Shown piece after piece: positions 25,524 through 28,861 of a stretch of DNA of 64,000 nt. The DNA lies in the NCBI RefSeq assembly GCF_001553405.1, contig NZ_KQ960952.1, forward strand, positions 215,965-279,964. The letters run 5' to 3'. The notes below the pieces were generated by a model. It did no database searches. It saw nothing but the letters and a program-made list of their open reading frames with translations, and was not told the origin of the DNA. Positions within the stretch are counted from its first letter, which is position 1, and every line of letters begins with the position of its first letter. The position numbers and the translations under genes were made by a program. The stretch is from Megasphaera hutchinsoni. Its GTDB lineage: Bacteria > Bacillota > Negativicutes > Veillonellales > Megasphaeraceae.

Positions 25524-26759
25524 TTAAAATGCGAATACTACTTGTGCACGTGTTTCTTCTGCTAAGCCTACGTTATTTGATTTTTTCTTAGAAGCAAAAG
25601 ATCTCATCGCTTGGAATTTGATATTTTTGGCAACGACATAATCTACGCCAGCGCCCCATGATTTAACATTTGCTGTTAATGCGGCAGCTCGCCATAAACC
25701 GCTATTAGGAGCAAGCGCATAGTTGTCAGCATTAATATATTCTACCCATACATCCCAAGATTTCGGGGTGAGAACATCAGCAGTACCATATTGTACTTTG
25801 CCTAACCATACTTTGGTTGCTTTATCACCTTTGATATCACGTTTTGTCTGTTCGTAATTTCCAGATACGGTGATCTTATCTGCTTTTACTTGAGCATATG
25901 CACCTAATGTGTTGTGTCCGATTCCATTTTGATTAGGTAAAATCGTTGCATGGTATACACCAATGGAAGTATTATTCCGTACGGTTCCTTCTACTTGTTG
26001 GAATGACACTTTACGATTTAATAAAGCAAAAGTATCGCCGTCTTTTAATTTACCATATCCCACGGTAGCAACAAAATTATCACGATTATAGGTAAGTTTT
26101 ACACCATCTAAGGTGCTGTCATATAAGTATCCTTGACCTAATGTAAAATCCTGACGACCTAATGTTAATCCTACTTTTTGACAGACTTGAGCCTGCAAAT
26201 TAGCGACCTTAGTTACAGCGTGTGCTGCTGAAGCATTATCAGTGCTTTTGAAAGCTTGTACGTATTCAACGCCATATTGTGCAGTAACATTATCGTTTAC
26301 TTTCGCAGTAGCCTTAAGTACTGTTTTTAAATCATAGGAAGCATCTTTTTCAACCTGTCCTTTGATATGAATGTAGCGAACACGTGCATTACCTTCTAAT
26401 TTTACATTTCCTACTTTATTTTCTAATTCAGATACGCGAACACCTAATACATTTAATTCATTTGCAAACTCTTGAGCTAATTTATTGATAACTGCACGTT
26501 GTTGTGCGTTAGCTTTATGTGAATTAGCCATTGCTTTTGCTGTAATTTCAGCTGCTTCATAACGAGTGATCGTGCGGTTTCCTTCGAAATGCGTACCATC
26601 TACACCTTGAATGATACCTGCATTGGCAATACTTACAACGGATTGGTATGCCCAACTATTAGCTGGTACATCAACGAATGGATTAGCAGCAAAAGCACAT
26701 GCCGTGCCAACAGCCATGGTAGCCACTAAAGCGGACAATAATTTTTTACTTTTTTTCAT
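25524..26759 (-). CDS. ompM: OmpM-type outer membrane protein with SLH domain
   Basis: A 411-residue outer-membrane protein. A signal peptide covers residues 1-24 (LLSALVATMAVGTACAFA). One SLH domain follows (NPFVDVPANSWAYQSVVSIANAGII, about 26-75), which in Negativicutes tethers the outer membrane to polyamine-modified peptidoglycan. A coiled segment (about 80-115) ends in ELNVLGVRVSELENKVG. The rest is a porin-like barrel of alternating strands ending TRAQVVFAF with terminal Phe. It is the best marker of a diderm Firmicute here. GAGGAG precedes the ATG. A consensus promoter and a long structured leader lie upstream. Tethering function is family knowledge; pore activity is inferred. Confidence 0.93.
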   Translation of the reverse strand: MKKSKKLLSALVATMAVGTACAFAANPFVDVPANSWAYQSVVSIANAGIIQGVDGTHFEGNRTITRYEAAEITAKAMANSHKANAQQRAVINKLAQEFANELNVLGVRVSELENKVGNVKLEGNARVRYIHIKGQVEKDASYDLKTVLKATAKVNDNVTAQYGVEYVQAFKSTDNASAAHAVTKVANLQAQVCQKVGLTLGRQDFTLGQGYLYDSTLDGVKLTYNRDNFVATVGYGKLKDGDTFALLNRKVSFQQVEGTVRNNTSIGVYHATILPNQNGIGHNTLGAYAQVKADKITVSGNYEQTKRDIKGDKATKVWLGKVQYGTADVLTPKSWDVWVEYINADNYALAPNSGLWRAAALTANVKSWGAGVDYVVAKNIKFQAMRSFASKKKSNNVGLAEETRAQVVFAF

Positions 26760-26782
26760 AGTAAAATCTCCTCTTTTTTATA

Positions 26783-26892
26783 TTTATACGTGATTACTTG
26801 CTTATTTCAATATGAAATACAAAAAATGAGTACCCTTGTTTCCTCTATTCTTTATAAATCATAATTTTATTAACATTATCCTCACGTATAAA
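26783..26892 (-). promoter_or_regulatory. Candidate structured 5' leader of ompM
   Basis: The predicted ompM transcript has about 145 bases of leader. Near its 5' end TTTATACGTGA (plus-strand 26882-26892, read on the - strand) is a perfect 11-base complement of TCACGTATAAA (26783-26793), which lies 8 bases before the ribosome site. Between the arms is a second perfect hairpin, TATTTCA/TGAAATA with a 3-base loop (26803-26819). A closed multi-branch RNA is therefore plausible. I do not recognise it as a known riboswitch class. Regulation of porin expression is inferred. Confidence 0.45.
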
Positions 26893-26911
26893 AAAGATAA
26901 CGTTTTGTTGA

Positions 26912-26940
26912 ATTATACCATTTTAATTTTATACAATCAA
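26912..26940 (-). promoter_or_regulatory. Promoter of ompM
   Basis: On the - strand, TTGATT (26935-26940), a 17-base spacer and TATAAT (26912-26917) preceded by TGG form a near-consensus vegetative promoter. Transcription should start near 26905. The remaining gap to rqcH (26760..27136) is very AT-rich. Confidence 0.75.
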
Positions 26941-27084
26941 GTTTTTTATTTTATTTATTTTTGAAATTGTTTATTATTTATCTTTTATTTTGATATATTG
27001 TATCATTATATAAAATAAATAATGATAACTAATATTATATTCTTTTAATGCAATTATTTCATACAATGAAACATAATTCATGTA

Positions 27085-27113
27085 TTTAGTCGTTCTTTTC
27101 ATTATGATATAAT
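27085..27113 (+). promoter_or_regulatory. Promoter of rqcH
   Basis: TTTAGT, a 17-base spacer and TATAAT (27108-27113) with an extended TGA before it. The ATG at 27137 follows TAGGAG, giving a leader of about 15-20 bases. Confidence 0.6.
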
Positions 27114-27136
27114 AAATAAAAAAATAGGAGATTTAT

Positions 27137-28861
27137 ATGAATATAGATAGTATTACCTTACAAGTTATTACCAATGAATTACGAGAAGCATTAATCGGTG
27201 GCCAAATTTCAAAAATTTATCAACCTGATATACGTACCTTATATTTTCGTATTTTTAATACGCCTAAAACATATCATCTTATTATCACATTAGATATTAC
27301 TCCACGAATATATCTTTCTTCTGTTATTCCACCTATGCCTGATATGCCATCGGCACTTTGTATGTTTTTACGAAAGTATTATGAAAACGGTAGAATTGCT
27401 TCTATTGAACAATTGTATTTAGATCGCTTATTATCTATTGATATTGATATTTTAAATGCAGCAGGAAAATTAATAACACGCACAATTCAAATAGAATTAA
27501 TGGGCAAGTATAGTAATGTCATTTTTACAGAAAATAATATTATTTTAGAAGCATTGATTAAAACTAAACGCAATACTACTGCACTCCGTACAATTGCACC
27601 AAAAGAACCTTATGGTTTTCCACCTAATGCAATGAGGATGAATCCGTTTTCATTTACCTCAGAAGAATTGGCTGACATGATTCCTAATAGTGTAGAAGAA
27701 ACGTTAGGAAAATGGTTGTTGCGTCATTTTAATGGCATGAGTACAATTCTTTTAAATGAATTGACCTATCGGACGGGAATTGACCATAACAAGACATTAG
27801 CAGAAATATCGTTAAGTGATCGATTTACGTGGTGTCGTGCAATAGAACAAATGGGAATAGAATTAAAACAAGTAAATGGAGTTTATGTATATAAAGAAAA
27901 TGAAAAAACGAAAGAACTCATATTCCCTTTGCTTTTACAATGCTTATCTACTTCTTCTCCTGTTCACGTTCCTTATGTTCAAACCTATTTAAATAAATTT
28001 CAAGAGAATTGTAAAAGCTTAAACGGAGAACAACGGATATTACAAAAAATAGTTCAAAAACGTATAGAAAAACAAAAGAAAAAAATACATCGTATGCAAA
28101 TAGAAATGGAAGAAACGAACAAAATGGATGTATATAGAGAATATGGAGACTTATTAATGATATATGCTTCCATGCCCTGGCAACATCAATCGTATATAAC
28201 CGTTGATAATATTTTACATGAACCCGTAAATTCAATAAAAATTCCCATTAATCCAGCATGTTCTTTAACAGAAAATGCAAATAAATATTATAAAAAATAT
28301 ACAAAATTACGGCATAGAAAAAGAAGTACTGCCCATTTACAAGAAGAGAATGAGATGTTTTTAACATATCTCTATTCTCTCGACTATGCATTAGAAACGG
28401 TACATACAAAAGCGGAAATTGATGACATAAAAGACGAAATGAAACAAAGCAATTTATTAGAGCATACCTCAAGAATAAAAACAAAAAAGAAGACGGTCTC
28501 CCCTATTTTTACTATCATGATAGATAATATTCCGCTATATATTGGACATAATAATAGGCAAAATGATTATTTAACAGGGAAAAAAGCACATCCTTATGAT
28601 TTATGGTTTCATGCTAAAAATATCCCTGGCTCACATGTTATATTAGCTTGCCATGATGTACAACCAACGGTGGAGCAAATAGAAAAAGCAGCACAAATGG
28701 CTGCATTTTGCAGTCAAGGGAAAAAATCATCAAAGGTAGAAGTTGATTGTACATTAATAAAATATGTAAAAAAAATGCCCCATGCAGTGCCGGGACTAGT
28801 AACTTTTTCTCATCAAAAAACATATTTAGTAGAACCTAAGGATATTTCGCTACATAAATAA
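27137..28861 (+). CDS. rqcH: RqcH/NEMF homologue (Rqc2, formerly fibronectin-binding protein FbpA)
   Basis: A 574-residue NFACT protein. The NFACT-N domain runs from residue 1 to about 260 and includes Asp96-Arg97 in YLDRLLS, matching the Asp-Arg pair needed for Ala-tailing in Bacillus RqcH. A coiled-coil arm occupies roughly 290-430 (QKRIEKQKKKIHRMQIEMEE). The C-terminal NFACT-R domain has HPYDLWFHAKNIPGSHVIL. In Bacillus RqcH binds obstructed 50S subunits and recruits tRNA-Ala to add degradation tails (known). The older adhesion name is unlikely to reflect the main role. Monocistronic with promoter and terminator. Confidence 0.93.
   Translation: MNIDSITLQVITNELREALIGGQISKIYQPDIRTLYFRIFNTPKTYHLIITLDITPRIYLSSVIPPMPDMPSALCMFLRKYYENGRIASIEQLYLDRLLSIDIDILNAAGKLITRTIQIELMGKYSNVIFTENNIILEALIKTKRNTTALRTIAPKEPYGFPPNAMRMNPFSFTSEELADMIPNSVEETLGKWLLRHFNGMSTILLNELTYRTGIDHNKTLAEISLSDRFTWCRAIEQMGIELKQVNGVYVYKENEKTKELIFPLLLQCLSTSSPVHVPYVQTYLNKFQENCKSLNGEQRILQKIVQKRIEKQKKKIHRMQIEMEETNKMDVYREYGDLLMIYASMPWQHQSYITVDNILHEPVNSIKIPINPACSLTENANKYYKKYTKLRHRKRSTAHLQEENEMFLTYLYSLDYALETVHTKAEIDDIKDEMKQSNLLEHTSRIKTKKKTVSPIFTIMIDNIPLYIGHNNRQNDYLTGKKAHPYDLWFHAKNIPGSHVILACHDVQPTVEQIEKAAQMAAFCSQGKKSSKVEVDCTLIKYVKKMPHAVPGLVTFSHQKTYLVEPKDISLHK

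Follow-up and report, generated by a model that had tools for sequence, protein, structure and literature searches.

Porins are abundant proteins, and in proteobacteria their mRNAs are controlled by small RNAs through Hfq. In these bacteria, the mRNAs of outer-membrane proteins count among the typical targets of small RNAs, and outer-membrane porins come under sigma-E/small-RNA control; in Escherichia coli a 5′ hairpin shields the ompA mRNA from decay. Translational riboswitches can act through an anti-Shine–Dalgarno strand. In diderm Firmicutes, OmpM serves as an outer-membrane tether and nutrient channel (PMC10628300). That paper was found to make no mention of a promoter, transcript, untranslated region, leader or RNA-seq, and no mention of a promoter, mRNA or untranslated region was found in a second one (PMC5491611); given the silence of both on such control, the regulation of ompM seems open.

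The closest described RNA is the SLH motif, a structured RNA and orphan riboswitch candidate presented in one paragraph by Stav et al. (2019, BMC Microbiol 19:66, PMC6429828). According to the available portion of that text, its 80 examples come from Synergistaceae, Clostridia and Negativicutes, about 60% precede genes for SLH-domain proteins and the rest genes of unknown function, and cyclic-di-GMP is suggested as a possible ligand. Compared by this description in words, the porin-leader element analysed here is probably the same RNA: 90 of 100 gathered element loci precede SLH-porins, and the element also occurs in Negativicutes. Outside this class, our model matches 70 genomes of Bacillota. 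Against the 80 published examples stands a core found in 258 of 300 Negativicutes genomes. Near-universality in the class, occurrence in Atribacterota, placement before non-SLH porins, an apparently compensatory closing triplet and anti-Shine–Dalgarno covariation are absent from the available text on the motif. The gltD, ldh2, ilvD and potE motifs are further candidate cis-regulatory RNAs of Negativicutes or Veillonella (PMC8632094); unlike the porin element, they precede gltD, Ldh_2, ilvD and potE genes, and the terms outer membrane, SLH and porin do not appear there. Among the matches listed in searches of the open-access literature, no further account of the element was found.

The window, a 64,000-nucleotide stretch of a Megasphaera hutchinsoni contig, contains an ompM gene whose product, by likeness to OmpM proteins, should comprise a signal peptide and a C-terminal barrel (Table 1). 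The initial annotation had placed a near-consensus promoter, TTGATT-17-TATAAT, ahead of this gene; it is present on the minus strand (26912–26940), with a TGn extension besides, and its position would imply a transcription start near 26905. A divergent NFACT-type gene (27137–28861, plus strand) has the AT-rich intergenic region in common with ompM. No known riboswitch class had been recognised in the leader, and none of the 4227 models of Rfam 15 gives a family there: at gathering scores the whole window returns only a T-box located elsewhere, the region 26500–27200 returns no match down to E 5, and the loci of seven relatives, searched to E 1, return TPP, tRNA and a weak tRNA-overlapping match, none of them at the leader. 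The T-box leader (RF00230; 61798–62006, minus strand) scores 96.4 bits, exceeding its gathering score, and the genome's second ompM paralogue is followed, at a distance of about 1 kb, by a TPP riboswitch (RF00059; 75.5 bits; L002, 3778–3876, plus strand). Both are likewise cis-regulatory leaders in the same window or genome, and neither overlaps an examined ompM leader. The string GAGGAAA, which we take to resemble RNase P RNA, was also considered and this resemblance rejected, since the RNase P families of Rfam do not match the leaders.

Table 1. The ompM gene of the window and the features of its leader (window coordinates)
Feature	Position	Strand	Basis
ompM, SLH-porin, 411 aa, gene presumed to be controlled	25524..26759	-	SLH domain match
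-35 box TTGATT	26935..26940	-	sequence
-10 box TATAAT, TGn extension, 17-base spacer to -35	26912..26917	-	sequence
Predicted 5′ leader of ompM, ~146 nt	26760..26905	-	predicted from promoter
Shine–Dalgarno site GAGGAG	26768..26773	-	sequence
5′ outer arm of leader hairpin	26882..26892	-	exact complement of 26783-26793; paired in predicted fold
3′ outer arm of leader hairpin	26783..26793	-	exact complement of 26882-26892
5′ strands of inner helices (5 bp + 10 bp)	26847..26863	-	fold with closing triplet forced equals free minimum
GAG, 5′ side of closing triplet of apical hairpin	26843..26845	-	predicted fold; eight other leaders carry AAG/CUU, apparently compensatory
Conserved apical loop GAAACAAGGGUA, consensus GAAAC-NN-GG-NN(N)-A	26831..26842	-	sequence comparison
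CUC, 3′ side of closing triplet	26828..26830	-	predicted fold and family triplets
3′ strands of inner helices; anti-Shine–Dalgarno place in other family members	26811..26827	-	family comparison

Folding of the minus-strand leader (26757–26907) yields −32.1 kcal/mol, with a z score of −5.0 and none of 200 shuffled sequences as good, whereas the plus strand reaches a z score of −1.7 and is equalled by 11 of 200 shuffles. Together with the conservation and covariation described below, in Negativicutes and beyond, this supports the structured cis-acting leader that the initial annotation had proposed. The exact 11-base arms that it reported, enclosing 88 bases, are there as well, the gap from the 3′ arm to the ribosome site being 9 bases instead of the 8 claimed. 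A perfect 7-bp hairpin (UAUUUCA/UGAAAUA, 26803–26819) does exist within the arms; it overlaps the 3′ strand of the conserved hairpin, so that the two structures are partly mutually exclusive, and it competes with the conserved fold. What that first reading missed is that the conserved part is not the 11-bp arms and lies instead in the apical loop (26828–26845), that the core is common to paralogues and other envelope genes, and that a related candidate has possibly been published (PMC6429828). The essential part is the apical hairpin GAG-[GAAACNNGGNN(N)A]-CUC, on the minus strand, which reads GAGGAAACAAGGGTACTC in the window copy. The leader RNA presumably controls the expression of ompM.

The core has exactly three exact matches in the window genome, each ahead of an ompM-type gene and 83–87 nt upstream of the start codon; the other two read GAGGAAACAAGGAAAACTC at the second ompM (contig C28) and GAGGAAACAAGGAATACTC at the third (contig C2). 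Scanning with the 19-base form and two mismatches allowed gives seven matches in this genome, two of them exact, and the fourth long SLH-type gene (L004) is without a core. Among 33 ompM-type leaders gathered by protein similarity, with no use of the pattern, 26 have the exact core and seven do not (L004, L013, L017, L021, L022, L023 and L026); L017 and L026 carry altered forms. The degenerate core of L017, GAGGAAACCCGAACAAACC, lies upstream of an ompM-type gene and is possibly a decayed copy. At the third paralogue, a palindrome, ACTGTATCACTAAAGTGATACAGT, is found just 3′ of the TATAAT box and about 35–58 nt before the core (L003, minus strand). It resembles a repressor operator, and this paralogue may have added transcriptional control.

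A search for the core as GAGGAAACNNGGN{2,3}ACTC finds it in 57 of 61 genomes from the window's order and at the frequency given above in the class, where the reversed pattern, as a control, produced 5 matches in the 300 genomes. Named records of Veillonella, Selenomonas, Mitsuokella and Sporomusa are among those that carry it, including Veillonella parvula SKV38 (L397). When 100 copies were gathered by pattern from diverse genera, 90 preceded OmpM-type SLH-porins, nine preceded other signal-peptide genes (L111, L120, L158, L159, L166, L171, L178, L179 and L182) and one ran off the end of its contig; the downstream genes of L104 and L198 were judged by eye, and the start at L179 comes from a later gene calling. 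Removal of near-duplicates from 304 elements with a called start left 248, with an SLH-like N-terminus downstream in 210 and a median core-to-start distance of 90 nt (5th–95th percentile, 59–119 nt). The remaining 38 mostly lead into signal-peptide starts, a few being chance matches or miscalled starts. Pfam searches of 10 non-SLH downstream proteins gave a porin or barrel match in four, one of them over the cut-off (L442, Porin_4), DUF4402 in one and nothing in five. The pattern also matches 99 viral-contig stretches in IMG/VR, which none of the counts include. As shown by comparison of these leaders, SLH-porin genes and some other envelope genes have, between promoter and ribosome site, a predicted, irregular hairpin capped by the conserved core.

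A covariance model built from 61 leaders matched, at E ≤ 0.001, 83 of 398 genomes of the window's phylum, 70 of these outside Negativicutes. In 17 of 18 non-Negativicutes Bacillota loci that were read the core is present, before ten SLH-porins, six other signal-peptide genes and, in L446, an SLH-like gene judged by eye and taken from the same contig as L366; since only these 18 loci were read for the 70 model-positive genomes, some weak matches may be due to chance. In the phylum of a Candidatus Atribacteria record (L344), the model finds matches in 36 of 50 genomes with E ≤ 0.01 and in 31 with E ≤ 0.001, and the 20 loci read comprise 18 placed 78–91 nt before SLH-porins, one at a contig end and one without the core. 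A third phylum, of seven genomes, has matches in five, four of them at E ≤ 0.001; the genes downstream of L457 and L458 start with a signal peptide, and their proteins have no Pfam match. The model match at L459 (E 4.5e-4), with no porin downstream, is evidently due to chance. In a scan of contig records, stray matches were found, among the matches listed, in records titled Prevotella, Verrucomicrobia, Pelagibacteraceae and others, and none of the at least 120 matching records listed bears a Synergistota title.

Is the stem conserved along with its loop? With the core held fixed (n = 174), shuffling of the flanks lowers the probability of the closing GAG–CUC pairing from 0.87 to 0.20 and the number of flank-to-flank pairs from 23.9 to 10.6; for the window copy alone, the latter values are 30.2 and 12.0. 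Pairing peaks about 8–17 nt from the core on both sides and dips near 5–7, 19–20 and 29–30 nt, which suggests that internal loops recur roughly every ten pairs. The covariation score of 103 model-aligned copies is 0.321, compared with 0.176 for shuffled and at most 0.229 for slid partners, and an alignment that was not fitted to the model gives 0.302 against 0.180 and 0.252, respectively. Of 16 aligned pairs in the 103 copies, 13 have changes on both sides and three are invariant. Among 320 intact loops that lie ahead of a called start, the closing triplet is GAG/CTC in 295, AAG/CTT in eight, GAG/CTT in one and not fully paired in the other 16 (an unpaired TAG...CUC before a porin in L321, one GAG...AUC and 14 unrelated); AAG...CUC was not seen among the 320. 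The eight AAG...CUU cases come from Selenomonas and Propionispora records, Bacillota MAGs, several of whose copies are close relatives, and the seven-genome phylum. The closing triplet could not vary in copies found by pattern, and because most loci were gathered by the GAG..CTC pattern or by a model derived from it, selection accounts in part for how constant core and triplet are; on balance, the AAG/CUU triplets are compensatory evidence for the closing stem.

A lack of conservation or covariation in relatives had been named at the outset as an outcome that would speak against a regulatory leader, and the comparison, once made, found the opposite: both conservation and covariation of the structure, within Negativicutes and outside it. 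AT-rich sequence, such as that of this region, often contains inverted repeats, as would suit a structure that had arisen in the leader by chance. Such an origin is refuted by the leader's z score of −5.0, the distribution of the core in order and class (258 of 300 genomes, against 5 matches of the reversed pattern), the pairing lost on flank shuffling and the covarying stems, and we assign it next to no probability.

The stems also carry the feature that points to a mechanism. In the middle helix, purines make up about 70% of the 5′ strand and pyrimidines about 70% of the 3′ strand, and the 3′ strand is complementary to the ribosome site of its own gene, with a sharp maximum in windows starting 6–9 nt after the CUC; the 5′ flank has little complementarity to this site. 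The duplex with the own ribosome site has −7.39 kcal/mol, compared with −5.85 kcal/mol for swapped partners (0 of 5000 permutations, z −13.1, n = 224), and the effect persists when swapping is restricted to partners whose proteins are similar (z −9.7, n = 189). It is found outside Negativicutes (z −4.9, n = 36) and in the rest (z −10.7, n = 188), a split drawn from record titles and kinship lines in which the 188 include unsorted records, and control windows show little or none of it (z −2.0, −0.3 and +0.8). A few failed duplexes inflate the means in the position scan and in one 5′-side control, so that differences and ranks were used. Distance limits and the omission of ten loci as chance matches or miscalled starts (L309, L345, L354, L398, L320, L366, L460, L307, L156 and L076) gave 229 elements for accessibility and 224 for the anti-Shine–Dalgarno tests; L461 was additionally left out of the comparison inside and outside Negativicutes and of the ON/OFF energies, and the ten loci were kept in the promoter and reading-frame counts.

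Given this family-wide match of the 3′ strand to its own ribosome site, a translational switch is the best mechanism, and we propose the following model. In the ON form, the middle helix would be closed, its 3′ strand (about 7–19 nt after the CUC) being paired with the purine-rich 5′ strand and the ribosome site left free. In the OFF form, the same strand would act as an anti-Shine–Dalgarno over the ribosome site, while the apical hairpin could remain closed. A factor that reads the loop, either a protein or a small ligand, would set the balance between the two forms and could thereby tune several porin mRNAs of a cell together. The reader remains either a ligand or an RNA-binding protein dedicated to this task. 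Metabolite riboswitches do not usually combine a conserved loop with variable stems, and a binding site for a protein would fit this combination just as well. As in anti-Shine–Dalgarno riboswitches, a leader strand would pair either in a hairpin or with the ribosome site; the element differs from them in that its conserved part is an apical loop of 12–13 nt and not a multi-helix core, and in having no Rfam family. We consider it fairly probable that the leader belongs to a widespread family of cis-regulatory RNAs in the mRNAs of outer-membrane porins and works as a translational switch, the switching itself being what we infer from these complementarities.

The computed difference between the ON and OFF forms has a median of 3.3 kcal/mol (5–95%, −7.7 to 16.0) over the 213 of 224 elements with usable duplexes, and within such a range the binding of a factor could tip the balance. 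The predicted accessibility of the Shine–Dalgarno site is slightly lower than with shuffled upstream sequence (0.36 versus 0.43; n = 115, every second of the 229 elements having been folded), and a pyrimidine 5-mer of the anti-Shine–Dalgarno type lies between core and ribosome site in only 119 of 224 elements. Family-wide, the anti-Shine–Dalgarno strand is shared with the hairpin stem, and the window copy by itself does not display this: its duplex has −4.5 kcal/mol, a value reached by 42% of shuffles, and its ON form is computed to be 13.5 kcal/mol better than the OFF form. These values may speak against a switch in the window copy, or AT-rich copies may use a weaker version. With the ON form strongly favoured and the anti-Shine–Dalgarno arm weak, a switch at this locus rests on family membership.

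It is conceivable that the hairpin acts without switching, its loop recruiting a conserved RNA-binding protein or the hairpin as a whole shielding porin mRNAs from decay. The constancy of the loop, owed in part to the way in which copies were found, over stems that drift freely would suit this explanation, as would the abundance of porins and the moderate distance of promoter-like boxes upstream. Boxes with up to two mismatches are enriched upstream of family elements (62 of 229, against 12 of 229 shuffled), and those with up to three, in 139 of 229 elements, place the -10 box at a median of 70 nt from the core, a score that 99 of 229 shuffled sequences also reach. A simple stability or protein-binding hairpin does not, however, predict a 3′ strand complementarity to the ribosome site that is specific in position and partner, and we regard it as rather unlikely.

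Proteobacterial small-RNA control is likewise post-transcriptional and acts on several outer-membrane protein genes together, and proteobacterial outer-membrane protein mRNAs are established small-RNA targets; the three copies of the window genome have the unbroken string GAGGAAACAAGG in common, to which a trans-acting small RNA might pair with the help of Hfq. Elsewhere, however, the two bases before the GG differ between paralogues (e.g., G019, G022), so that GAAAC is the one stretch of the loop that stays constant. Control of the proteobacterial kind uses Hfq and pairing RNAs, and Hfq is matched in 12 of 60 genomes and unmatched in 48, including the window genome, yet the core is present in 57 of 61; no Hfq match was found in the window genome, in 15 genomes of its genus or in the family with Veillonella. 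A small-RNA target of this kind is therefore improbable.

Two further readings concern the letters of the loop itself. A GGA in a hairpin loop could be a CsrA/Rsm site, and frequent loop variants read ACAUGGAUAC, which presumably resembles the CsrA consensus. The A after the GG is not constant, and the CsrA family PF02599 is matched in none of 60 genomes, the window genome included, with matches in 3 of 14 control genomes; within the scope of this search, a CsrA site is ruled out here, and its probability is negligible. Alternatively, GAGG followed by NTG in the loop could start a leader peptide, in keeping with an NTG at that place in 153 of 231 elements and a frame that stays open for a mean of 20.4 codons, compared with 12.5 in shuffled sequence. 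The other 78 elements, which have no start there, are equally open (19.1 versus 11.4 codons shuffled), as is the next frame (19.7 codons). Moreover, no common peptide extends beyond the core, the frame relative to the porin start is not fixed, and the window copy reads AAG in place of NTG. With elements lacking the start and the next frame open for as long, the leader peptide was rejected, and we consider it very improbable.

What is the relevance of a conserved loop before porin genes? Returning to the translational switch, the element probably helps to switch outer-membrane protein production on and off, and its loop, shared by Negativicutes, other Bacillota and Atribacterota, is a direct handle for pulling out its binder. 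Such tests are practical, since Veillonella parvula SKV38 has the core. If inherited vertically, the element would, as a regulatory RNA, follow the history of the outer membrane itself, and would bear on the diderm-to-monoderm question. We speculate, tentatively, that it may be an ancient RNA switch for outer-membrane assembly which diderm Bacillota share with Atribacterota and probably with other phyla. One factor, either a new RNA-binding protein or a ligand derived from the envelope, would read the near-constant loop in the main porin mRNAs and adjust the making of porins to the condition of the outer membrane. The switch might then be the counterpart of the proteobacterial sigma-E/small-RNA control in lineages of which many are without CsrA and Hfq.

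Two loci are of interest for their arrangement. At L331 (plus strand), tandem cores at 439–456 and 595–612, 156 nt apart, precede one signal-peptide gene, an arrangement reminiscent of tandem riboswitches. At L076, a core on the minus strand (1501–1518) lies 157 nt before a gene with a TonB-dependent-receptor-like N-terminus, the gene call being uncertain; this is possibly another outer-membrane client of the element.
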